Shown here piece after piece: positions 1 to 46,519 of a stretch of DNA of 64,000 nt; the stretch's first letter is position 1; every line of letters begins with the position of its first letter. The position numbers were made by a program, and so were the translations under genes. The stretch spans positions 40,219,120 through 40,283,119 of the forward strand of contig NC_080421.1 in assembly GCF_029873635.1 (NCBI RefSeq), read 5' to 3'. The stretch comes from Malania oleifera (Eukaryota > Streptophyta > Magnoliopsida > Santalales > Ximeniaceae). The notes under the pieces were generated by a model, which ran no database searches, was not told the DNA's origin, and saw nothing but the letters and a program-made list of their open reading frames with translations.

Positions 1-1695
1 TTTTCTCTGACCACAAAAGTTTAAAATACTTTTTCACCTAGAAGGAACTAAACATAAGGCAGAGAAGGTGGTTAGAACTTATTAAATATTTTAACTGCAC
101 TATCAGTTACCACCCAGGGAAGATGAACGTGGTAGTTGATGATATGAGTAAGAAGTTTATGGGACCAGCGTTGGCAGCTATGGAGATCCAGTATCCGATT
201 ATGATGGATTTGGAGAGACTCGGCATTGAATTGGTCGAGAGTGGTTCTCAAGCTTGTATTGCTAGTTTAGTGGTGCAACCTACCTTACAGGAGAGGATTA
301 AAGCTTCTTAGAAGGAAGACCTAGAATTAGCAGAGGTGATGGAAAGAGTACAGAGTGGTCAGGGGGAGGAATTCAGTATTGCAGATGACGGAGTTTTGCG
401 GTTCCGTTCTAGATTATGTGTTCCTGCCAATGTTAATATGAAAAAGACTATTTTAAAGGAGGCTCATAGATCTTTGTATATAGTTCATTCTAGTAGTACG
501 AAAATGTATAAGGATTTATGAGAGTCGTACTGGTGTAGTGGTATGAAGAAAGAGATCGTTGAGTATGTAGCCCAGTGTTTGACGTGCCAGTAGGTAAAAG
601 CTGAACACCAGAGGCCAACAGGGCAACCATTATTTATCCCAGAGTGGAGATGGGATCATATATTTATGGATTTCGTTTCAGGGTTGCCATTGGCATTGCA
701 TGGCTAGAATGCAATTTGGGTGATTGTGGATCATTTGACTAAGACCACCCATTTCCTTCCCATCAAGATCAACTACTCCATGCACAGGCTAGCAGAGATA
801 TATATTCAAGAAATAGTTCGTTCTCACGGCGTGCCAGTGTCTATAGTGTCAGATAGAGACCCACGTTTCACGTTATGATTTTGGAGAAGTTTGCAGGAGG
901 CTTTAGGGTCTTAGTTATCTTTTAGCACAACATTCCATTCCCAATCAAATGGGTATACTGAGAGGATGATACAGATACTAGAAGATATGCTCTGAGCGTG
1001 CATGTTAGATTTTGGGGGTAGTTAGACTCAATTCATGCTGCGGGTGGAATTTGTGTATAATAACAGTTATCATACCAGCATTAGCATGGCACCGTTTGAA
1101 ACACTGTACGATAGGAAATGTCATTCTCCTTTTTTCCTAGGATGAGATGTGTAAGCAGTGAGTTGTGGGGCTAGAGCTTGTTCAGCAAGCGCATGATAAG
1201 GTTCGACTTATCAGAGATAGAATCAGTGCAACATAGAGCCGACAGAAGAGTAATGCCGATAATTGCCGCAGGAATTTGGAATTTGATGTTGGTGACTATG
1301 TATTTTTTAAAATAGCTCCACTAAAAGGGGTTATGCGATTTGGGAAAAAGGGTAAACTTAGCCCTAGGTTTATCAATCCATTTGAGATTCTAGAGAAAGT
1401 GGGGCCGGTTGCCTATAGGCTAGCATTGCCCCCTGTGTTGTCTAGAATCCACGACGTATTCCACGTTTCCATGTTGAGGAAATACGTCCCATACCCTTCT
1501 CACGTGATCAGTTACGGTGAATTAGAGCTCAGTGATTCACTAACGTATGAAGAGGTGTCAGTACAAATTTTGGATAGGAAAGAACAAGAATTATTTAATA
1601 AGAAGATTCCTCTGGTGAAAGTCTTGTGGAGAAACCATGCAACAGAAGAAGCTTCTTGGGAGCTCGAGGAACAGATAAGGCAGAGATATCCATAA
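1..1695 (+). pseudogene. gypsy I pol remnant: RNase H tail, integrase, chromodomain-like C-terminus
   Basis: The first 150 bases encode the RNase H end, with a [12 protein letters not shown] segment and YHPGK. An integrase zinc-binding region follows (HRSLY...H about 460-490, then CLTCQ about 575-595). The catalytic core keeps MDF (about 665) and SDRDPRF (about 850). The longest open stretch, 1276-1695 (139 codons), is the integrase C-terminal region and ends in VKVLWRNH...EASWELE, a shortened chromodomain-like tail as in gypsy II and III. In-frame stops occur at 309, 519, 591 and several later places. Many fit CAG to TAG or CGA to TGA by comparison with gypsy III. It cannot make a working enzyme. 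Confidence 0.85.
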
Positions 1696-1950: not shown

Positions 1951-2018
1951 TGTAGTGACCCAAAGAATTATGGTATTTAAATAATAAAGAAGAAGGAAAA
2001 AGGAAAATGAAACAGGGC

Positions 2019-2222
2019 CTCATCAACGAACACAGAGGATTTGTCGACGAAAGCACATGAGGGGCTCATCGACGGGGACGTGTCTCGTCGATGAGAGGAT
2101 ACCGAGAGGAAGTTTTGGCAATTCTGAATTTTGTCGACGAGGGGAGTGTTCGTTGATGAACTGCCTTCTAGACCTCATCAACGAGGTGACGTGGCTCGTC
2201 GACGAATGTCAATGTATAAATA
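2019..2222 (+). promoter_or_regulatory. U3 array of eight palindromes plus TATA box (gypsy I)
   Basis: Eight 12-bp copies of a degenerate palindrome, consensus TTCGTCGACGAA, start at 2019, 2040, 2065, 2084, 2130, 2149, 2174 and 2195 (steps 21, 25, 19, 46, 19, 25, 21). A TATA box (TATAAATA) lies at 2215-2222, nine bases after the last copy. Most differences from consensus are CG to TG or CA, as expected from deamination of methylated cytosine. Position and geometry suggest an upstream promoter element bound by a dimeric factor; that is inference. Confidence 0.72.
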
Positions 2223-2594
2223 GGCCTAAACTTCATTTTTTGGCCAAAAACTCACGCACAACTTTCATTTTCTCTCTCATCTTCGGTTTCCCATCCTTCT
2301 CTCTTGATTTTTGGGTCTATTCTTCTCTGGATCGATGATCTGAGGCCACCATGACACTCCTAGGGAAGTTCCTTGCATATCACTAGAGTTGGTCGTCGGT
2401 GGGATGAGCTTGAAATTCATCGTAGATTCCAGGTAAGGCTTTTTATTTGGAATTTGGCTTTACTGTAGTTATAGGAAATGTTATATATGAAGAAATACTG
2501 AAGTTTAGTTCTAGAAGATGTTGTTTTCAGAGTATTGAACGGGGAACCCAGCCGGTGTTGGATTGCTTGTTTTAGGAGCTTTCTCAGGAATCAG

Positions 2595-3698: not shown

Positions 3699-5953
3699 TG
3701 ACCTTATTGGTCACACCCGGTTTTGATTATGACAAATACTCATTGCGTCTAATGGGTGTTTGAGGTTTTTGGGCAGGAACTAAGATTGTTAAGATCAAGA
3801 TGGGCACAAAGCAAGTAAAGCCTAAAGACCAATTTATATTCAGTGTTGTAATATATTTCATTTAATTGATCTGTAATAGTAAGTAGGGCTCTGGTTTGTT
3901 ATAAGCTCACACACATCACATGTATGATTTATTTCATAAGCTCAAACAAATCGTAAATGAGAAATGACCTTAGAAAGACCTTAGGGTTTTCCCTTCGGTC
4001 GACCGACACTGGACTTTTTCGGTGTCTTCAAAATTGAATCCTAAATGACCCTAGGACGTACACATTTGCACCAATGTTTGATAGGCACTTGAATAGGGTT
4101 TGTATGTTTCAAGACGAGACCGAAATGCACACTTGGTGCACTTTCGGTCGACCGGCCAACTCAGTTCATTTTGGCCTGGTTGACCGAACCAAGCCTGGGT
4201 CAACAGTTGACCAAGGTCCTGGTTGACCGAACCAGGTAGTTCAAAAAGCCCTGGTCGACTGAAACCTCCCTAGGTCAAATATTTGAGCATCTGGTCGATC
4301 GAGACAAAAACGAACTCCAACTACCTGGTCAACCAAGGGTCCTCGAGAGAAATCCCAATGGTCTGGTCAACCGAACCAGCCAAATCAAAATGGCCCAGTC
4401 AACCGAACCTCGGAAATTTGAAAAATTGCCCTCTCCTGGTCGACCGACCACTCAGTTCAAAATTCCCCTGCTCGACCGAACCATATGAGACCTAGTCGAC
4501 CAAAACATTTCTGGTCGACCGGACCTCTCGGGTTGCCCTGATTTTTACCACAGTTAAACATTCTTTAAACATGGTTAAAATGCTTTAAACATCATTAAAC
4601 TTCCCTAATAATACCCAATAGGTCCCCAACGGTCATATTTTCTCCCATGTCTATATATATGAGATCATTTGTGAAAATGAAACATGGATTAGCTAGTTTG
4701 ATTAGGAGAGAATTCTCTAAAAACCCAAAAGCCTATACTACTCATTTTTTAGCCTCATTGACTCATGCTTACCTTCTATTAGTGCCTACATCATTTGTAA
4801 GTGGATTGAGTGTTTGTTTCCATAGGTTTGCTCTCCTTGTCATGCTTGGTTGATATGTTTTTATTGAGAGCAAAACCTAAGTACTCTTAGGGGGCTTCAT
4901 TAATAAGTCTCTCCTAAGAAGACTTTTATTTGATCTTCTAAGGTTGTACATTCATTGCAATATCTTGAGAAGATCGTATAATATTTTGGTTGCAAAATCC
5001 TTTCATCATCATTTTCAAATATCTATTGTGTTTTATACTGAAATATATTTGAAGAGATATTTGTACGTCTGATAGTGATCTTTGTTGCAACATTCACTCA
5101 CTCATATATTTTGCTAAATACAAAGATTACACATATTTTGCAAACCAAGCATATACATCATTTGATACTTACATGCTTGAGACACTCTGCTGATTGAAAT
5201 ACTTAAGACTTGACATCTTTGTGTGAACTTATTGGCTGAATATCTTATGATACAAAGATTGCTTGTTCGACACTCTCATGTACACATTACACTGATAGAA
5301 AATACCCTTGAGAGTTGAACTATCTAGACCACACTGAGCTTACATATTGAATCATATTGTGGTGTATGTTATTGCGCTTATTTGGGTACATATCTTCTTT
5401 ACATGAAAGCACAATCACTGTACCATTTGATTATATACACACTTGTTGTATTTCCAGGCACGGGCCTGAAGAGGGAGACTAGCCCTAGAATAGTTCCAGA
5501 TTGGCTTAGACCCGGTTAGGAAAGCTAGGTGCGTCGTTCTATTAAGGCGTGTAGGTTGAGGTCAGCCCTGCTAATTGACCTGGTTAAGGTTGAGGTCAAC
5601 CCTGTGTTAATTTGACCTTGTTGTAAATGGTGCCACTCCACCCTTAAGTGAGCTATTAGTGGAATCCTCGGGCTTGCGAGCTAGAGGCGGGGACGTAGGC
5701 ACAGTTAGTCGAACCCCAATAACATATCGAGTGTTTGTTTATATTTCTGCACTTTATATTTACTCACATGTATGTTATTATGTGGATGATGCGCTAGATT
5801 TAAATTTATGAATATTATATTTATCAATGTATTTGGAACTACATAGAAAGACCCTAAGTTTTAATATCTTGCCAACATTTAGTTCATCCTAGGAGAAAAG
5901 TTTAAAATTCCAATTCACCCCTCCCCCCTCTTGGGAATACACCAATTCTAACA
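3699..5953 (+). mobile_element. Unit A: solo-LTR-like insertion in the gypsy I LTR
   Basis: Starts TGACCTTATTGGTCAC and ends ATTCTAACA. CTAT flanks both sides (3695-3698 and 5954-5957), consistent with a short TSD. It is 2,255 bases long without coding potential. Shared family marks are a GTTTTGAT-ATGACAAA segment near the start, a GGACGTAGGC ... GTCGAACC motif near 5691-5715, and CAATTCACCCC...CCTCTTGGGAATACACC at the end. Units B, C, D and E carry the same marks. No PBS, PPT or internal terminal repeat is visible, so a solo LTR is the simplest reading; a LARD with lost ends is an alternative. Confidence 0.72.
3994..4525 (+). repeat. Array of GGTCGACC palindromes in unit A
   Basis: About thirteen copies of a motif near CTGGTCGACCGAACC (palindromic core GGTCGACC) occur at irregular spacing, for example near 3994, 4142, 4176, 4219, 4251, 4291, 4363, 4394, 4436, 4468 and 4511. 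Variants are mostly CG to CA or TG. Unit C has the same motif; unit E has a different palindrome in the corresponding zone. Confidence 0.7.
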
Positions 5954-13272: not shown

Positions 13273-13486
13273 TTTGTCGATGAGTCCCCTCTATCCGTCA
13301 ACAAAGGCCCTTTAGTGGTTCATCACCAAATTTCAGAGCATCGTCGATGACGAGATCCAGAACGACCGAAAATATTAGGCAGTTCATCAATGAAGCCCTT
13401 TGTTCGTCAACGAACGGCCTTCAGTAGTTCGTCGACGAAGGTGCCATTCGTCGACGCATTTGACTGGGTCAAGGGGTCTATAAATA
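13273..13486 (+). promoter_or_regulatory. U3 array of eight palindromes plus TATA box (gypsy II 5' LTR)
   Basis: Copies of the TTCGTCGACGAA-type palindrome start at 13273, 13294, 13319, 13340, 13383, 13403, 13428 and 13447 (steps 21, 25, 21, 43, 20, 25, 19). TATAAATA follows at 13479-13486. The copy at 13428 matches the consensus exactly. The geometry is almost the same as in gypsy I and in the LTR at 45936. Confidence 0.72.
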
Positions 13487-26335: not shown

Positions 26336-26669
26336 TGTAGAGACCCAAATCTGGAAAATAAAGAAATAAATGAGAAAAGAAGGAAAGGGAAAATAAAAAG
26401 GGGATTTCAACAAGCTTCATCGATGAGTCCCTTGTGTTCGCCGACGAAGACCCTTCAGTGGTTCGTCGCCAAATTTTAGAGCATCATCGATGAAGAGATC
26501 CAGAATGACCGAAAATATTAGGCTTGGAGTTCATCAACAAAACCCTTCAATCGTCGACGAATGACCTTTAGTAGTTTGTCGACAAAGGCACCATTCGTCG
26601 ACGAATATGACCAGGTCAAGGGGTCTATAAATAAAAATTATGTTTGCTTCTTCATTAAGAAACATAATT

Positions 26670-26705
<36 letters not shown>

Positions 26706-28461
26706 AATCGCGCCCACACACTCTCTCTCTCTCTCTCTATGAATTCTCGTTGCTCATTGACAGATTCAACGATTGGAAGTTACTACGAGGGTCTAGGGGA
26801 GATTCTCTATAAGTCTAGCGGAACAGATCCTTGATTTGAGCTTTTTAGGCGTTACTCCAAAATCAGGGTAAGTAAGTTATTTTAAGGCTTTATGGTTGTT
26901 GTGAACTATAAGAAGGCCTAGGGAATGATTAATGCATGGTTGCTGATCTAGAGTTTGTGTTGATCTATTTGGAAAAAAGTGGTTTCAAGATTTTGAACTA
27001 CAACCACCGCAGGGCGTGGAGTTTGGGGTTTCTAGTGGGCTTTCTTGTAAGTCAGGTAAGAAGATTTGTCTAACATCAGTTACTTTAAATATGAACCAGT
27101 TAAATTGTATTTACGGTTTCGGAAAAATTAGGGTTTTGGGTTATGGTCTCCATTTTTCTTTAAACTTATATATTCTTATTATATTAAAGGTTGGAGATGC
27201 TTAAACCCTTGTTTTTAAATTAAATGATATTTTGCGAACCATTTATTATATTATAGCATATTTAATCAAATGAGTGTGACATGGGATGGTAAATGTGAAT
27301 GAGCTGAACTGGTGAAATATTTGTATGAGATATGGAAACTAGAGTTTCAAATTGTTTTCAGGAATTGTGGAAAACGAGATGTCGGTTTAAGATCGAGGGC
27401 TGCGAATGCCTGGTAATGCCAATGAATGAATAATTTTGTGAAAAATACTGGAATTGCTTAAATTCTTTATGGAATGAAGACAGGATACTGTGCTTTCGTT
27501 ATAAATTGTATATATAATGTATGAACCACGTAAGGAACTGGTTACTATTGGAGCACGGTACCATTGCTAATGGGTGATACAGTGCAACCACACCTTATTG
27601 GTAAGGGTGGGTATCTGAAAAGTCGATTGGCGACTAGCTTTGGTGTATGATCCAGGGTGGGGTTGACCAAAGCGAACTTGTAACATCTAAGTGATTAGAC
27701 TGGTGGGCCACCAGAGTTGATCGGGTCTATGGACCTCACAACCCATACCATAGGGGAAGTAAATGGTGTTCATGTGGTGTTCCAAGGCAGGGAGGAGTTC
27801 GATATGCATATACATGATTTAAAAACAAAATGGGTGAAGTTACAACTTTGAGTATCGAGTTGGGAACTCTCACTTGTAATGAGCCGCACTATCTTTTATA
27901 GGAATTATATGTATATATATATATATATTTATATATTTATATATTTATATATTTATATATATCTTCTATATTAAAGGGTTGAGAATGTTTTAAATTCGTA
28001 ATTCATTTCAGTTAAACTTACTATTGTCTTCTGTTGTAATAAACTTATATGATCACACATTGATGTAATCTGATCCACCTTACTGAGAAGTGTCTCACCC
28101 CAATATACAAATCTTGTTTCATGTCCTGCAGGAAACCGGACCTAGCATTCTAGTGGGTTCTGGAGCATAGTGTTTTGTGAGTTTTGTAAGTACTCGTCTA
28201 AGTACTTGACTATGGTCAGGTTATCTTTTTGGGATTGTAATAGAAACATTGGAAGTATTTATGTAATAGGATTGACTTAGAACTCTTGTATGGTATTTTG
28301 AGAATGAAGCTTTTCCGCTGCTTTATTGTATGTTGTTTATGGAAAGGGAAACCGCAAACCCTTCAGGGTCGAACCCTCTTATTTATGGTATCAGAGAATA
28401 TTTTTATTTTATGTTATGTTTTTTAGCACTTCGGACCCACGTGGCGGGTCAAGACGTTACA
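26336..28461 (+). repeat. 3' LTR of gypsy II
   Basis: TGTAGAGACCCAAATC to AAGACGTTACA, 2,126 bp. It contains the same modules as the 5' LTR without the LARD-like insertion. An AT-rich expansion (27905-27965) and loss of the intron acceptor AG distinguish it. Open frames at the CT tract are repeat artefacts. Confidence 0.88.
26416..26633 (+). promoter_or_regulatory. U3 array of eight palindromes plus TATA box (gypsy II 3' LTR)
   Basis: Palindromes start at 26416, 26437, 26462, 26483, 26530, 26550, 26575 and 26594 (steps 21, 25, 21, 47, 20, 25, 19), with TATAAATA at 26626-26633. It is the partner of 13273-13486; the two copies have mutated separately, yet spacing is kept. Confidence 0.7.
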
Positions 28462-28466
28462 AACCG

Positions 28467-29369: not shown

Positions 29370-29568
29370 TGTTGGAATTGGTGTGATCCCAAGAGGGGGG
29401 TAAATTGGGTTTTAAAAGCTTTTTGGCTAATTTAAACATTTCTTCGATTCACCACAGATCATATCTCATTCAATGCACACGCGTGTATGTAAAATAATTA
29501 AACTATGAGTTCAGGCATACACGTTTGCTATAAAACTCATTTAAATTAAATGTGTGCATGTAAATAAT

Positions 29569-31736: not shown

Positions 31737-32734
31737 ATAATAGTAACCATAAATAAACAAACATACACATAGAAATTTAAGTGCAGAAATATAAATGAGA
31801 TAGAGAGAGAGTGACACACGATATCTGTTATTGAAGTTCGGTCAAACCAGCCTACGTCCCCGTCTTGGGCATACCCCCCAAGGATTACACTAACTCTGCT
31901 TACTTAAACGATCGGAGTAGAAGCCATTACAACCTCTCATTACGGGGTGAGGTAAACCCCAGCTCAATTTTAAGGTTGGGCCCAACTAGTCTCCCTTACA
32001 GGGCGGAGACTCTTTAGTTCAATTTCCAGGCTAAATCCAATCGGTCTTACTTACAGGGCTCAGACTCCCCAGTTCAATTCCGAGTTGAACCCAACCGATA
32101 CATTAAAAACATTTTTCGTACATATAAACATGCTTCTAAAAATACAAGTAGAGATGTACACATTAATGCTCAAATACATGCACTCCAATATGATATGAAA
32201 TATATGCTCAGTAGAGTAAGGGTGTTTTTCAAAATAATATTTCAACCTTTGAAAATAATTTGTACGATGAACACTCAAAGGTTTTGACCCTAACAAAAAC
32301 ATTCTCCCTTAAATTATTTTCAAGAAATCATATGGAAAGAACCAAGATTTACTCTCAAGAATGATTTTAAAACAATGAAAAAAATAATTAGAGTAAAATA
32401 CTTTTGATGAAGTAAATGCCCTAAATAAAAATTCTCTTTCAAAAATGATTTTTCAAGTGAATGAATGAATGAAAGAGATTTTGAAAGAGTATGAAAAAGT
32501 TGCCCCAATGAAAGATTTTTGTAATGAAAAATTAGTTTGGGGAAACTTTGATAAATTTAGCCCAAAATATTAAAGAGAAAATTTTGGCTAATCAAGGTTG
32601 CTAATCTAAGTTATGGAGGGGGTATTTATAGATTTTCAAGAAAATTGACTGTTAAGGGAGGCGCTCGGTATTTTTCAAATTGTTTAATGAAAAAATTAAG
32701 CTTAATTAGTGCTGGAAAATAACCCAACCCGAGA

Positions 32735-33048
32735 GGTTCAATTGACCATAGAAAAGGTTCGGTTGATCATATTAATAAGTTCGGTCAACCATGGCCATTT
32801 TGAACTATGGATTTGGTCGACCGTTTCAAGGCAATTCCGAACCCTTCGTAGGTTCAGTCGACCGTGGCTTAGGTTTGGTTGACCATCTTTGAGGTTTGGT
32901 CGACCGAAGCTATTTTGAACTATGAGTTTGGTCGACCAACTTGGTGAAAAAGTGAATTGTTATAGTTCGGTTGCCCGAGGAAGGTTAAATCAAAAACAAG
33001 TCGGTTGACCAAGGAAAGTCAAACTATTGACTTTTCAAGGTTCGGTCG
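32735..33048. repeat. GGTCGACC palindrome array in unit C
   Basis: About ten copies of a GGTTCGGTCGACCGAA-type motif at irregular steps (for example 32756, 32780, 32815, 32852, 32894, 32927, 32968, 33000), with three or four more at 35098-35206 beyond nested unit D. Variation is mostly CG to TG or CA. Confidence 0.68.
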
Positions 33049-35097
33049 TGTTGGCCTTATAAGGCTTAAAATCTTGTTATCTTGTTTTGATGCTAACAAA
33101 CAAGTGAAATTTAATATAATTGTATGAGTAATGATATTTCAGGATTCATATATGTGAAAGCAAGGTCAAAGTGCTCACAAGGATCAAATGAAGCTTAAAT
33201 GAGCCAAGACATGAATTACTTGTTGAAGAACATGAGGACATGAATAAGTTGTTGAAAGCCAAGGCATATTAAAGGCAAAAGATCCAAAGAAAGGCAAAGT
33301 AAGAAAGCTTAAAGAATATGGAAGCTTGAAGAAAAGATTGATTCAATCCAAGGACAAGGCATGAAGACTCAAGAACTTAGAATGTTAATATTTTAGAAGT
33401 CTTATGTAAGTGTTTTAATGTTTAAAATATCATTTGAAATATTTTGAAGCTCTTAGGTTAACTTCTTAGACCTAGATACTTTTTAAAATACCTTAATAAT
33501 ATTTTTATAATGTCAAAAATTATTTTAAAAAGGTTAGAATTATTTTTGGAATAAAGAGCACCAAAAAGAGTTTTTTTCCCAAATGCTGTCAGTTTTTATA
33601 CAGCTGCATTGAGGTGAATTTTTACCTATCAAAAACTCATTATTTTAAATATTGGTAAACATTAAAGTTGTAGAATTTTCTCTTAGCTTTCTTTTGACAC
33701 CAAGAATAAGTTATACAAAAAAATTGATGGCCAAAACACTGAAACGGGGTCATTGCTGTCAGACATTTAAAAATTGTTCAATGGGCAAATTTTTAAAATT
33801 CTAATGTTTTAAATTATAGCCGTTTGAACCTTAAATGTTCTAATAAATAGGGAAATTCTTTAAGGAAACTTTTTCAAGTTTGAAAGCCTATAAATACATG
33901 GTTTTGCAAAACAAATAAAAAATTAAGAATTGAAAAATCTGTTTTGAGAAGTTGAAAGTATTTTTGTTCTTCCTAAGTTCTCTTGCTCACTCATTGAAAA
34001 ATCCTTTTGCTGAGAACTCTGAAGTGTTGATCCTTCTTCCTTTGAATTCCTACTGCTAATCCTCTTTTAAGAAGGATATTGGTGAATTCTACACTTGAGC
34101 TTCATTCTATTTCCTATTGATATTTTACATTTAAGTATATAGTGTTGAAATTGTACTAACTTGCTCTTTGAGAGAGTATACTTGCACGCAGATTTTATCT
34201 TATGTTTCTTGTAGTTCATTGACGTTCCAAGGTGTTTGGATTGTTGGCTAAGCAAGGGGATATTGCTTAGAGAGGCAGACTCTAGCCTATGTAAGAAGTG
34301 ACCGAACGAGGGAATATCGTTTGGTGAAGGCAGACTCTAGCCTTAACCAAGGAGTGTTGTAATCGGTTTTGTTCCACCCGTCAATGGAACAGGTTTAGTG
34401 AATCCTTTGGTGGTTTGCCAAAGGCGAGGACGTAGGCTGGGTATAAGCCGAACCTCGTAAAAATCTCCGTCTCACTCTCTCTTTCCCTATTCTTTAATTT
34501 CAGTTCATATACAACTGCGTGGATGATTTAAATATATAAATTATACATACTATGCATATTTGGAAATTAAGTAAACTTAAAATCCAATTTTGATTTGGGT
34601 TGCGGAAACCAAAAGGGAGTACGTTGGTTACACCATATCTTGCGGAAACCATACGAGAGTACGTTACTTGGTTAACACCCCAAAGATAAATTTACCAAGA
34701 GTTTATTTGAATTCTAAATATTTGAAAAGAGTGATTGGATTTATTTATACAAGGCTTTACTTCAGTAAGCATAAATTATAATTCATAATCACAGGGCTTA
34801 TATAAACAAACAAACTATCTCAAGATCTTATATTACCAAAGTGCTGAATACTTTATATCTTTGTTTGGTTGTTTGTTGTTTAACTTGTACTTGGCAAATA
34901 AATTGATTGTTTGGTTTGAAGATTGTGTTTAATTGATTGGATAAAAGAACTAAGTTCTTGATTGATTAAGGAATTAAAAAAACAAGTCAAGAATTGGTTA
35001 AAAGAAATAAAAGAAGTTTAAGGTATTTTAAAAGAAATCAAAAGAAATTTTTAGAATCCAATTCACCCCCCCTCTTGGGAAGCTATTCCTAATTTCA
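33049..35097 (+). mobile_element. Unit D: solo-LTR-like insertion inside unit C
   Basis: Starts TGTTGGCCTTATAAGG and ends CTATTCCTAATTTCA, 2,049 bp, with perfect TSD GGTCG (33044-33048 and 35098-35102). The target is itself one of the GGTCGACC motifs of unit C. It carries TTTTGATGCTAACAAA near 33090, GAGGACGTAGGC...GCCGAACC at 34428-34456 and CAATTCACCCCCCC...CTTGGGA at its end. It lacks the GGTCGACC array. No coding region is supported. Confidence 0.83.
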
Positions 35098-35643
35098 GGT
35101 CGACAAGGCATTTAACACACCAAGAGGTCGGTCGACCGAGCTATGGTCAACATTTTGACTCCGGAGCAAACAGTGGTTCGGTCGACCATCAAATATGGTC
35201 GGTCGACCGAGGGTGTTTAAAATTCCAATTTTGCCCCTAAATTTGACCTAATTAATTCTAAACCTTCTGTATGATTTTGATGTTTATGAAAAAGGTTTTT
35301 CATAGGTATATTAAGTACCCAAAGGTCATTTGGTTCCCTATGGTCAAACTACGGTCATTCTAAGCTTTCATCCATATCATGCAGATGCATGCATTATTAC
35401 AAACCAAAAAAATAAAAATTAAATGCAATACAAGTAGAATCAAAATGTCTTCTTCTTTCGCTCTTCATTTTCCATGGAATTCGCCAAGAAAGTGTGAGCT
35501 TTATGTTCTTGCTTGCATTCATTTTTTGGTATCTTATGTTCGTGCTGAAATTAAAAACTTGTTCACACACTAAATGCGCACATACGATACTAGTGCTTTG
35601 TTAGCATCAAAATAGGGATCAAACTCAAAAAGTCAACAATGAT

Positions 35644-35952: not shown

Positions 35953-36122
35953 TGTAAAAACCCCAAAAACAAAGATATAAAAAAATTAGTGGATTGATTT
36001 CCAAAAAAAAAAAAAAAAAATTAATTAATTAATTAATTGGATTTAAAAAAAAGAAAAAAAACTAATTAAAATTTATTTTTATTTTATTAATAAAATATAT
36101 TATTATTAATATTAATTTAATA

Positions 36123-36171
<49 letters not shown>

Positions 36172-38345
36172 ATCCTGAAGCTTCAAAGAAGCTTCAAGAT
36201 GAAACTTTTTATTAAAAGTTCTCCTGCACCCCTATCTTCTTCTTCTTCTTCATTCTTTTCTTTTCTTTTCTTTTCTTTTCTTATTCTTCTGCAACGTGAA
36301 CTCTCTTTCTCTCTCCTCACGTTCTCTCTCCCTCTCTCCTTGATTTCGTGATGAATTTTCGCCCAATCGGAAATCCGAAGATACCACTGAACTCCATTCG
36401 CCGCTACCATCATTTCTACCGGAGTGGATCGATGGTAGGAGCGGCGTAGGTGTATTCCCTGGGGTAAGTCATTTTCCCCTTTTTCTTTAATTTCTTGCAA
36501 AATATAAGCCCAATTGACGAATGAACACCACCACGAGAATCTAGGGATGATTCTCTACAAGTCTAGTGGGACGGAATTCTCGTGGGGTTGTCGGACCAAA
36601 ACCCCAAATTTGGGGTGCGACGATTATTAAGGGACTTATTTTTAATTAATTAGCATTAATTTATAAATGCTAAAATATTAAGCATCTGGGGCTGAAGTAG
36701 GATTTCTGGAATTTAGGGCTTGGGTGAGCGCCGCGGGTATAATTTTGGGACCCGCAGGAAAAATTTGAAAAATTAAGTGGGGATGTTAAATAATAGTTTA
36801 AATATTAATTTGAGGTATATGGAGCCTAGGGAAGGTTAGATGAGTATTATTTTGGAGAAATAGATTAATTAATCTGAGAAAAATGTAAATTGCAGGAATT
36901 AAATTTCGGGCGCCAAGGGTGTGAAATTTTGCGTCCTAACGAATTTCTCAGTAGCAAGGTAAGAGAATAAACTAAAGCAGTAATTTTCCATACAAATTAT
37001 TATTGATTATGAGTAAATTTATTTTCAGAAAAGCATATGTTATATTATGTATTACGAATGAAATGTACGATTGGGAAAATACTGCTATGATGATTAAAAT
37101 GTATATGTATGTATGAGATGTAAGGAATTTACGATTTTAGAATATGAAGTATAACTTTTAACAGCATATGTGTGGCATGAATATTATTTTATGTGAAATG
37201 TATTATGATGTGAAAGATTCTACGAACCAAGCATGATTTCAGGTATTATGAAAATATGAGTTATGTTGTGATGGTTTTGACGATTATGTGATAAATGATG
37301 TATTTTCAGAATATATATACCTGAAACAATTTTAGCGCGAGGCCATATATTTATGTTATCGGCACGAGGCCGTATTTATGTTATCGGCACAAGGCCGTAT
37401 TTATGTTATTGGCGCGAGGCCACGTATTTATGTTTTCGGCACGAGGCCGTAATGATGTTATATATATGATCATGTATTATATGTTATCACCACCAAGATG
37501 TTAGTTTAGTTCAGTTCAAGGGCTCGGTACCGTAGCTATATGTGTAGATCAGATATCTACGTCAGATTAGTGCTAACCATCCCACGAGGGGATGGGAGAT
37601 GGATAGTCGATGTGACTTTTAGTAGAGTGTGGAAGTCCACCTGGCAGTCTGGACCAGGGTGTGGCGAGCTCATCGTACTTACAGACATATTTGATTCGAC
37701 AGTGGTTGGCCAACCATTGTCGGGTCCCGCCTTCGGGCTGCACAACCCGTCATGGGGGGTAATACATGACACCAGCTAGCTATTCATCCTAGGTTTGTTT
37801 TCAGTACTACAATTATAACAGATGATTTTATGTATGTTATAATTTATTAACAGATGTGAAAATATATGTTTATCCAGTACGATATGATGATGTTTATAGA
37901 ATTATGAAATGTACTGTATACGTATAAATGCATTAAATATTCATGTTGCCACACAGCTGTATTTAGTTTATTTTCCCTTACTAAGAAGTGTCTCACCCCT
38001 AAACTTAATTAATTTTTCAGGAACCCCTAAGAAACCGGCGGGCTAGAGCCGCCATTGAGTGATTGGAGCTTCCCTACTAGAAGGGTAAGCATTGAACTAG
38101 GATCGGGAGTTTTTGTTATTTAATCCTAGTGTTATTTTGACTTTTGGGGGTTGTATATCATAACAGTATTTTGATGTTATAGAAAGCTCGGGTATTATGT
38201 TTTATGATTGGATGTTTGAGATTTTATATTTACTGCTGCTAGGTTTTCCGCTTTGTTTGATAGGTGTCCCCGCTACCCACGGGGTCGGGTTGACCATTTT
38301 ATTTATTATGTGATAATTTATGTTAAGAAATTTAGGGACGTTACA
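35953..38345 (+). repeat. 5' LTR of gypsy III
   Basis: TGTAAAAACCCC to GGGACGTTACA, 2,393 bp. It contains A-rich and (ATT)n tracts (36120-36170), a double GAAGCTTC palindrome (36178-36198), donor-like GTAAGT at 36474 and GTAAGAG at 36959, a minisatellite, a CACAACCCGTCATGGGG block near 37740, and acceptor-like TTTTTCAGG at 38020. It lacks the TTCGTCGACGAA array. The intron-like span 36959-38020 is 1,062 bases. Confidence 0.9.
37333..37460 (+). repeat. GGCACGAGGCCG minisatellite, 5 units
   Basis: Five units of about 25 bases (core CGGCACGAGGCCG, spacer TATTTATGTTAT). The matching tract in the 3' LTR has eight units (44791-44998), so copy number changed after insertion. Confidence 0.88.
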
Positions 38346-43397: not shown

Positions 43398-43594
43398 TGT
43401 AAAAACCCCAAAACCCAGAGATATAAAAAAATTAGTGGATTGATTTCCAAAAAAAAAATTAATTAATTAATTAATTAATTAATTAAATTTTTAATTATTT
43501 AATCGGATTTAAAAAAAAGAAAAAAAACTAATTAAAATTTATTTTTATTTTATTAATAAAATATATTATTATTAATATTAATTTATTATTATTA

Positions 43595-43637
<43 letters not shown>

Positions 43638-45882
43638 ATCCTAAAGCTTCAAAGAAGCTTCAAGATGAAACTTTTTATTAAAAGTTCTCTTGCATCCCTA
43701 TCTTCTTCTTCTTCTTCTTCTTCATTCTTTTCTTTTCTTATTCTTCTGCAACATGAACTCTCTCTCTCTCTCTTCACGTTCTCTCTCCCTCTCTACTCGA
43801 TTTCGTGACGAATTTTTGCCCGATCGGAAATCCGAAGATACCACTGAACTCCATTCGCCACTACCGTCATTTCTACTAGAGTGGATCGGTGGTAGGAGCG
43901 GCGTAGGTGTATTCCCTTGGGTAAGCCATTTTCCCCTTTTCCTTTAATTTCTTACAAAATATAAGCCCAATTGACGAACGGACACCACCACGAGAATCTA
44001 GGGATGATTCTCTACAAGTCTATTGGGACGGAATTCTCGTGGGGGTGTCGGACCAAAACCCCAAATTTGGGGTGCGGCGATTATTAAGGGACTTATTTTT
44101 AATTAATTAGCATTAATTTAGAAATTTTAAAATATTAAGCATCTGGAACTGAAGTAGGATTTCTGGAATTTAGGGCTTGGGTGAGCGCCTCGGGTATAAT
44201 TTTGGGACCCATAGGCAAAATTTGGAAAATTAAGTGGGGATGTTAAATAATAGTTTAAATATTAATTTGAGGTATATGGAGCCTAGGGAAGGTTAGATGA
44301 GTATTATTTTGGAGAAATAGATTAATTAATCTGAGGAAAATGTAAATTGCAGGAGTTAAATTTCGGGCGCCAAGGGCGTGAAATTTTCTGTCCTAACGAA
44401 TTTCTCAGTAATCAGGTAAAGGAATAAACTAAAGCAGTAATTTTCCATACAAATTATTATTGATTATGAGTAAATTTATTTTCAGAAAAACATATGTTAT
44501 ATTGTGTATTATGAATGAAATGTACGATTGGGAAAATACTGCTATGATGATTAAAATGTATATGTATGTATGAGATGTAAGGAATTCACGATTTTAGAAT
44601 ATGAAGTATGACTTTTAACAGCATATGTGTGGCATGAATATTATTTTATGTGAAATGTATTATGATATGAAAGATTCTACGAACCAAGAATGATTTCAGG
44701 TATTATGAAAATATGAGTTATGTTGTGATGGTTTTGACGATTATGTGATAAATGATGTATTTTCAGAATATATATACCTGAAACAATTTTAGCGCGAGGC
44801 CATATATTTATGTTATCGGCACAAGGCCGTATTTATGTTATTGGCACGAGGCCAAGTATTTATGTTATCGGCACGAGGCCGTATTTATGTTATCGGCACG
44901 AGGTCGTATTTATGTTATTGGCGCGAGGCCACGTATTTATGTTTTCGGCACGAGGCCGTAATTACTATATTTTTGGCACGAGGCCGTAATGATGTTATAT
45001 ATATGATCATGTATTATATGTTATCACCACCAGGATGTTAGTTTAGTTCAGTTTAGGGGCTCGATACCATAGCTATATATGTAGATCAGATATCTACGTC
45101 AGATTAGTGCTAACCATCCCACGAGGGGATGGGAGATGGATAGTCGATGTGGCTTTCAGTAGAGTGTGGACGTCCACCTGGCAGTCCGGACCAGGGTGTG
45201 GCGGGCTCATCGTACTTACAGACATATTTGATTCGGCAGTGGTCGGCCAACCATTGTCGGGTCCCGCCTTTGGGCTGCACAACCCGTCATGGGGGGTAAT
45301 ACATGACACCAGCTAGCTATTCATCCTAAGTTTGTTTTTAGTACTACAGTTATAACAGATGATTTTATGTATGTTATGATTTATTAACAGATGTGAAAAT
45401 ATTTGTTTACCCAGTACGATATGATGATGTTTATAAACTTATGAAATGTACTGTATACGTATAAATGCATTAAATATTCATGTTGCCACAAAGCTATATT
45501 TAGTTTATTTTCCCTTACTGAGAAGTGTCTCACCCCCAAACTTAATTAATTTTTCAGGAGCCCCTGAGAGACCGGCGGGCTAGAGCCGCCATTGAGTGAT
45601 TGGAGCTTCCCTACTAGAAGGGTAAGCATTGAACTAGGATCGGGAGTTTTTGTTATTTAATCCTAGTGTTATTTTGACTTTTGGGGGTTGTATATCATAA
45701 TAGTATTTTGATGTTATAGAAAGCTCTGGTATTATGTTTTATGATTGGATGTTTGAGATTTTATGTTTACTGCTGCTAGGTTTTCCGCTGTGTTTGACAG
45801 GTGTCCCCACTACCCACGGGTTCGGGTTAACCATTTTATTTATTATGTGATAATTTATGTTAAGAAATTAAGGGACGTTACA
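43398..45882 (+). repeat. 3' LTR of gypsy III
   Basis: 2,485 bp, same ends as the 5' LTR. The length difference comes from the A/T-rich tracts near the start and three extra minisatellite units. The intron-like span is 44416-45557 (1,142 bases). A short frame at 45107-45316 also occurs in the 5' LTR (37540-37779) and is not a gene. Confidence 0.9.
44791..44998 (+). repeat. GGCACGAGGCCG minisatellite, 8 units
   Basis: Eight units of about 25-27 bases, the counterpart of 37333-37460. Individual units carry private changes (GGCACGAGGTCG, GGCCAAGT), so units have been gained, lost or reshuffled since insertion. Confidence 0.88.
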
Positions 45883-46048: not shown

Positions 46049-46266
46049 CTCGTCGAAGAATCTTTTGTCTTCGTCGACGAGTGCCCTTCTGGAGATCGTC
46101 AACAAAGTTCAGTCCCTCATCGACGAAGAGATCCCGAGTGAGTGAATTTCAGATTTTAGGTTTCCTCGACGAATGCATCTTCTCATTGATGAATTCCCTT
46201 CTGTGGTTCATCGACAAACCCTGTCTTCTCGTCAACAAAAACACGCGGCAACATCATGTATAAGAA
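46049..46266 (+). promoter_or_regulatory. U3 array of eight palindromes plus TATA-like box
   Basis: TTCGTCGACGAA-type palindromes start at 46049, 46070, 46095, 46116, 46162, 46182, 46207 and 46228 (steps 21, 25, 21, 46, 20, 25, 21). A TATA-like TATAAGAA is at 46259-46266. Sequence between the palindromes is mostly unlike that in gypsy I and II, yet spacing agrees to within three bases at every step. Confidence 0.72.
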
Positions 46267-46519
46267 TATCTGAGGTTGCTTCACTGTGAAGAAATTCATT
46301 CTTCTTTGTTTTTCTCTCTCTAAAACGGTTTTCTCTACCTTCTCTCTAAGATTCTGGTTGATTCAGATGAACCCTGTCTTCTCGTCAACAAAAACACGCG
46401 GCAACATCATGTATAAGAATATCTGAGGTTGCTTCACTATGAAGAAATTCATTCTTCTTCATTTTTCTCTCTCTAAAACGGTTTTCTCTGCCTTCTCTTT
46501 AAGATTCTGGCTGATTCAG
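46217..46519 (+). repeat. Tandem duplication of about 153 bp
   Basis: 46217-46369 and 46370-46519 are near-identical (AACCCTGTCTTCTCGTC ... CTGATTCAG), differing at a handful of bases. The unit includes the last palindrome and the TATA-like box, so the core promoter and transcription start region are doubled. Confidence 0.88.

Follow-up and report, generated by a model that had tools for sequence, protein, structure and literature searches.

Regulatory regions of LTR retroelements can carry repeated protein-binding sites, as in tobacco Tnt1 and Tto1, which have repeated activator boxes in U3, and in Drosophila gypsy with its su(Hw) sites. These boxes and sites resemble the putative binding-site array described here in being repeated within LTR-element regulatory regions, and they differ from it in motif, copy number and host. 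A closer system is found in Sireviruses. Passages of Bousios et al. (2010; PMC2829016) describe repeated Sirevirus LTR motifs that are palindromic and CpG-rich and occur at least eight times in each element. Most of these motifs cluster within the first half of the LTR, ahead of a conserved TATA box, and a regulatory role was suggested. The same passages report the repeated motif as Sirevirus-specific within the Ty1/copia set of that paper, note a CGG-CCG core signature in 12 of 13 motifs, and give the Vitis motif as CGGTCGACCG (Table 3 of that paper). The Sirevirus palindrome cluster of maize lies in the LTR cis-region and is discussed in passages of PMC5311732 and PMC10760457 as a possible silencing target.

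The window analyzed here is a 64-kb stretch of DNA that belongs to a flowering plant by its retroelement relatives and is dense with nested LTR elements. Eight TTCGTCGACGAA-type sites lie directly upstream of a TATA-like box in four U3 regions of this window. Compared with the Sirevirus motifs as presented in those passages, these sites are likewise dyad-symmetric, are found in eight copies in each of the four LTRs, and form a CpG-rich block upstream of the TATA-like box. The GTCGAC center is common to Vitis CGGTCGACCG and the gypsy array motif. Unlike the Ty1/copia Sireviruses, the array hosts are gypsy elements with a sub-threshold chromodomain match. Their core, TCGTCGACGA, has the form CG-T-CG-A-CG and lacks the CGG-CCG signature, and the eight-site grid, which hardly varies, does not start 200–400 bp into the LTR as in the Sirevirus description. 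The maize motif given in the cited passages (CACCGGAC...GTCCGGTG) comes from a non-gypsy element, and the gypsy arrays have no structure conserved among copies. The array is best read as a gypsy counterpart of the known CpG-rich palindromic motifs of Sireviruses.

A literature search on gypsy or chromovirus LTR palindromes and on the motif string, with subscription journals mostly outside its scope, returned no account of the array, and the palindrome passages found in PMC11302176 are unrelated to it. The preliminary description of this locus named no earlier report. That holds for this motif in the literature searched; features of this kind, however, are known from Sirevirus LTRs through the passages of PMC2829016. 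The three-core pattern was found in 4 viral and 26 genome stretches of public contigs, and 26 of these 30 have exactly three cores per 190 bp. None of the four densest stretches (L019, L022, L024 and L029, with 6, 7, 6 and 4 cores) is LTR-array-like: the L022 repeat is inside an ORF, L029 looks coding, and L019 and L024 are Nostoc repeats. All 26 genome-contig records are titled as prokaryotes. The two Nostoc contigs contain GTTTTGTTGACGAAAC-like units repeated at 20–22 and 41–42 bp steps.

Array hosts and layout

The array carriers represent three lineages: gypsy I, element A and LTR B (Table 1). The gypsy I integrase matches PF24626 (Tf2-1-like SH3) with an E value of 2.1e-27. The chromodomain PF00385 matches the two integrases scanned too weakly to pass its curated cut-off, with E values of 0.002 in gypsy I and 0.16 in element C. 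The array hosts are plant gypsy elements, probably chromoviruses and possibly Tekay-like. Element A encodes an RVP_2 protease and aligns with element C over 3.6 kb at 67%; its 5' LTR is broken at about 13521 by another element. Element C serves as an array-less control. Its ORFs contain RVT_1 followed by RNase H, and a protein search with its integrase ORF returned plant retroelements from many flowering plants among the best 120 of 7970 matches. No internal part of LTR B was identified in the 64-kb window. An Rfam search gave nothing at gathering thresholds.

Table 1. Positions of arrays, TATA-like boxes and host elements in the 64-kb window. Intervals are distances in bp between successive site starts.
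Feature	Position	Strand	Description
Array I	2019..2206		Gypsy I 3' LTR; starts 2019, 2040, 2065, 2084, 2130, 2149, 2174, 2195; intervals 21,25,19,46,19,25,21
Array A5	13273..13458		Element A 5' LTR; eight sites; intervals 21,25,21,43,20,25,19
Array A3	26416..26605		Element A 3' LTR; eight sites; intervals 21,25,21,47,20,25,19
Array B	46049..46239		LTR B; eight sites; intervals 21,25,21,46,20,25,21
TATAAATA	2215..2222	+	8 bases beyond last site of array I
TATAAATA	13479..13486	+	20 bases beyond array A5
TATAAATA	26626..26633	+	20 bases beyond array A3
TATA-like TATAAGAATA	46259..46268	+	19 bases beyond array B
Gypsy I	1-1950 (internal part); 3' LTR from 1951
Gypsy I LTR U3 start	1951..2225	+	Begins TGTAGTGACCC; purine tract AAGGAGGGGAGAA just before
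Gypsy I integrase C-terminal part	1276..1695	+	Tf2-1-like SH3, then sub-threshold chromodomain match
Element A	5' LTR from about 13193; 3' LTR about 26336-28463
LTR B	Starts about 45937		Begins with TGTAGAGACCCG; gypsy assignment from U3 only
Element C	LTRs 35953-38345 and 43398-45882 (3' LTR 43398..45882)	+	Array-less control gypsy
CGGTCGACCG-type palindrome array	3996..4521	+	In putative Sirevirus-like LTR
CGGTCGACCG-type array	32739..33011	-	Minus-strand TATA-like box at 32623-32631
Three CGGTCGACCG-type sites	35129..35209		Just beyond polyC integrase-signal-like end at 35066

Each array begins about 68–112 bp into its LTR and ends 8–20 bp upstream of the TATA-like box. TATAAATA is absent downstream of array B, and TATAAGAATA stands in its place. 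The motif is CG-T-CG-A-CG with flanking T and A. Sites differ from TTCGTCGACGAA at 0–4 positions, and 8 of the 32 are perfect palindromes over at least 10 bp. A strict CpG-tolerant core, TYRTYRAYRA, was used for counting. It has 36 matches in the window, 24 of them inside the four arrays, and reaches a maximum of 7 per 190 bp; 100 dinucleotide shuffles gave a mean of 8.7 matches and never more than 2 per 190 bp.

These data refine the preliminary description of the array. The eight 12-bp sites reported in gypsy I are present at the intervals given, but most sites are imperfect palindromes, and the gap to TATAAATA is eight bases rather than nine. The same grid was claimed at three further places. 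Each has eight sites, but A5 and A3 belong to one element and the count of lineages is therefore three. Agreement of the intervals to within three bases is correct relative to gypsy I, but the central intervals of the two element A LTRs, 43 and 47, differ by four.

Repeats of other kinds were also observed in these LTRs. A 153-bp tandem duplication (96% matches) at 46217-46519 in LTR B copies the final site of the array together with the TATA-like box and downstream sequence, leaving two tandem TATA-like boxes. Short GGCACGAGGCC-type and GGCGTACGGGCC-type repeats occur within the LTRs of element C (44790-45000) and gypsy I (2801-2950), and the gypsy I repeat at 2801-2884 was scored by Tandem Repeats Finder.

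Conservation of sites and spacers

Sites and spacers were compared between the three lineages of this one window, both ungapped and in the same alphabets, raw and purine/pyrimidine. Raw site identity was 0.69 (I-A3), 0.74 (I-B) and 0.76 (A3-B), compared to spacer identities of 0.33, 0.40 and 0.54 for the same pairs, the last value indicating that A3-B spacers retain some homology. The purine/pyrimidine values were 0.97, 0.97 and 0.94 for sites and 0.53, 0.61 and 0.68 for spacers. Replacing A3 with A5 (I-A5, A5-B) gave raw identities of 0.67 and 0.70 for sites and 0.39 and 0.50 for spacers, and purine/pyrimidine identities of 0.96 and 0.93 for sites and 0.52 and 0.67 for spacers. The between-lineage range in the reduced alphabet is thus 0.93–0.97 for sites and 0.52–0.68 for spacers, and the raw site range of 0.67–0.76 is well below this CpG-corrected figure. 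Gapped spacer identities (0.57, 0.58 and 0.66 for I-A3, I-B and A3-B) were close to the shuffled means (0.59, 0.57 and 0.63). Residual homology was detected in spacer 4 (A3-B, P <0.001; I-B, P 0.013), in spacer 2 (P 0.034–0.055) and in spacer 6 (A3-B, P 0.012).

The non-CpG core positions 2, 5, 8 and 11 match the consensus in 24, 23, 23 and 23 of the 24 sites of arrays I, A3 and B, or 93 of 96 cells, and the outer positions 1 and 12 match in only 12 and 18 of 24. Between lineages, sites of the same rank are no more alike than sites of other ranks (P 0.28–0.77), whereas within element A they are more alike (P 0.011). This pattern would follow if all sites were constrained to match a single target. 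On these sequence comparisons, the conserved unit is the site and not the spacers.

CpG decay within the sites

The arrays contain 13–17 CpGs each, and the 69 bases that precede each array have none. Most fall in sites: 14 of 17, 12 of 16, 14 of 15 and 12 of 13 in the four array spans. The 32 sites comprise 96 CpG positions, which read CG in 52 cases, TG in 14, CA in 28 and something else in 2. TA would be expected at 4.2 of the 96 positions if both sides of a CpG had decayed independently, and none was observed, which is the pattern left by single deamination of a methylated CpG. Variation of the sites at their CpGs is nearly all decay of single CpGs. The two LTRs of element A were identical at insertion, so the finding that 12 of their 17 within-site differences are CpG transitions shows this decay directly. 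We infer that the apparent R/Y degeneracy of the sites arises largely from decay and not from flexibility in binding.

CpG decay suggests that the sites are methylated, which also fits the idea that hairpins formed by the palindromes in read-through RNA give rise to small RNAs and promote silencing by the host, as has been proposed for the maize Sirevirus palindromes. In Sireviruses the palindrome regions are small-RNA hotspots according to passages of PMC5311732 and PMC10760457, and arrays I and A3 fold more strongly than shuffled sequence (z -4.9 and -3.9). However, folding is not conserved: it is weak in array A5 (z -1.6) and no better than in shuffles in array B (z -0.1), though both retain eight sites, and a stretch of the array-less element C LTR gives z -1.5. 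Elements should also lose a hairpin liability, yet the sites are kept. A stable RNA structure kept among the copies was rejected on these four z values. The folding probably arises as a side effect of palindromes that are still fresh, and we consider silencing through hairpins an unlikely account of the array.

Spacing, helical phase and symmetry

Intervals 1, 2 and 6 (21, 25 and 25 bp) are identical in all four arrays, so three of seven are unchanged across the three lineages. The spacing was evaluated with a simple simulation that used an indel rate of 0.048 per substitution, measured outside the arrays in three LTR pairs of the window (19 indels). Indel sizes were drawn from the 19 events with the element A U3 pair (one 4-bp indel) left out, and deletions were capped at spacer length. 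Spacer branch lengths of 0.2–0.8 were chosen as a range and unfitted, giving branch sums of 0.7–1.7 substitutions per site. At least three intervals stayed unchanged in 58–95% of simulations (P 0.58–0.95). An absence of any interval range above 2 bp occurred in 1–16% (P 0.01–0.16), and a range sum no greater than the observed 6 in 1–19%. All three measures became ordinary when indels longer than 8 bp were disallowed, with the no-long-indel measure at P 0.62–0.82. Under this neutral model, the lack of long indels between lineages appears somewhat unusual and a constraint on spacing is possible, but common ancestry and a scarcity of indels account for most of the geometry.

The preliminary description took the fixed geometry as a product of selection for same-face binding, with the spacing itself as the signal. 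The invariant intervals, the missing long indels and flanks that vary more than the grid (68, 80, 80 and 112 bp from LTR start to first site in I, A5, A3 and B) agree with this proposal, but the count of unchanged intervals is ordinary at the measured indel rate and does not serve as proof of selection. Helical phase also argues against it. R at 10.5 bp is 0.08 for array I, 0.11 for A3 and 0.31 for B. The 25- and 46-bp steps correspond to 2.4 and 4.4 helical turns, and the sites of array B fall at 0, 2.0, 4.4, 6.4, 10.8, 12.7, 15.1 and 17.1 cumulative turns. Doublets are spaced by about two turns internally (19–21 bp) and are rotated relative to one another; placement on one face is at best true inside the doublets. 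The change in the central interval between the element A LTRs points the same way, although it arose after insertion and is weak evidence. Selection for a same-face grid is, in our estimation, very improbable.

The two halves of the array had been described as near mirror images. Spacers have no mirror similarity in any of the four arrays (P 0.67–0.89), and the halves look mirrored because 21, 25, 21 is itself symmetric. Spacers 2 and 6 are alike in direct orientation in A5 (P 0.0035), A3 (P 0.008) and B (P 0.002), with P 0.70 in array I. The direct test on all three spacer pairs gave P values of 0.005 (A5), 0.027 (A3), 0.079 (B) and 0.155 (I). Since the joint test is significant only in element A, these comparisons suggest at most a duplication of a half-array.

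Such a duplication raises the idea that a site-plus-spacer unit was passively amplified and merely survives, with neither sites nor spacing functional. The direct likeness of spacers 2 and 6 and the agreement of the unchanged intervals with neutral indel expectation are both consistent with it. In the absence of constraint it is difficult to account for the gap between site and spacer identity in the purine/pyrimidine alphabet and for the near invariance of the non-CpG core positions. Tandem Repeats Finder, run on I and B, found no array whose period is the site unit, and its sole row touching B is the 153-bp duplication starting at the array end. Passive amplification with no function for the sites seems to us unlikely.

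Absence of the array from element C

No array was detected in the LTRs of element C, where the U3 is AT-rich and contains only AT-only core matches (36084, and TTATTAATAA at 43550). The K values for 3' pol are 0.36 (I-C), 0.41 (A-C) and 0.46 (I-A), and gypsy I is closer in this region to element C than to element A. The two elements that have both the array and pol are therefore the furthest apart. For three taxa in an unrooted comparison, this suggests that the array either is ancestral, with loss or replacement in element C, or moves as a module. The array-less state of an element with pol this near to gypsy I also indicates that the array is dispensable for some related elements. Elements C and gypsy I have a common purine tract and similar pol, and their U3 regions (43398-43700 and 1951-2225) look unrelated. 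Judged from these alignments, U3 may be a module with an evolution of its own.

A second type of array in the window

The Vitis-type motif CGGTCGACCG, allowing for CpG decay, has 24 exact-core matches in the window compared to a mean of 2.9 in 100 shuffles, and its density reaches 11 in 400 bp compared to at most 2 in shuffles. The three stretches listed in Table 1 contain 22 of the 24, and with up to one mismatch they hold 15, 10 and 3 matches. The minus-strand array has intervals near whole helical turns (21,22,32,41,21,21,32,39,34; R 0.72, n=9), and the plus-strand array is not helically phased (R 0.20, n=14). The region 4130-4530 folds strongly (z -4.7), as a palindrome-built motif would. 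The hosts of these arrays are putative Sirevirus-like elements.

Five polyC-CTCTTGGG signals resembling the C-rich integrase signal that Sireviruses have at their LTR 3' ends were observed on either strand, at 5923, 7185, 29388, 35066 and 51006, using a polyC pattern that we defined ourselves. The polyC end at 5923 is downstream of the plus-strand array, and for the minus-strand array the nearest downstream signal on the same strand is the one at 29388, about 3.4 kb off.

Discussion

The reading that we favor, and hold with moderate confidence from the sequence comparisons, is that the U3 array provides a dimeric host factor with sites that are prone to methylation, and that it acts as an upstream regulatory module. 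The array is probably functional. A dimeric host DNA-binding protein would sit on the sites and would drive or gate transcription from the TATA box, with eight sites providing redundancy. Methylation of the 24 CpGs would block binding, and deamination of the methylated CpGs would erode silenced copies. The interval grid probably goes back to an ancestral event in which a site-plus-spacer unit was duplicated, and a low indel rate would be the main reason for its persistence; exact spacing need not be functional. The preliminary description had also proposed a U3 enhancer bound by a dimeric factor. Conservation of sites against diverged spacers fits dimeric binding and sustains that part of the proposal, whereas the spacing and phasing evidence offered for it does not hold. 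Several points weigh against the regulatory-module reading: the sample is three lineages in one window of one species, raw site identity is well below the CpG-corrected value, A3-B spacers retain homology, and element C has no array. The likeness of the eight sites may also stem in part from amplification of a single unit, and the same data fit, in part, a silencing target.

A broader scenario is that two unrelated superfamilies of one plant genome, chromovirus-type gypsy (CG-T-CG-A-CG) and Sirevirus-like copia (CG-GT-CG-AC-CG), converged on GTCGAC-centered arrays with three evenly placed CpGs, which one class of methylation-sensitive host factor would read in deciding between on and off. Gain or loss of the U3 module would then be uncoupled from pol, with element C as an example. 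We offer this scenario as speculation that is unlikely to hold.

CpG-rich palindromic LTR arrays, reported as a Sirevirus hallmark within Ty1/copia, now have a gypsy counterpart. The putative binding factor could be sought with a defined 10–12 bp probe. The occurrence of gypsy and Sirevirus-type arrays in one window suggests that plant retrotransposons share a type of methylation-prone control switch.
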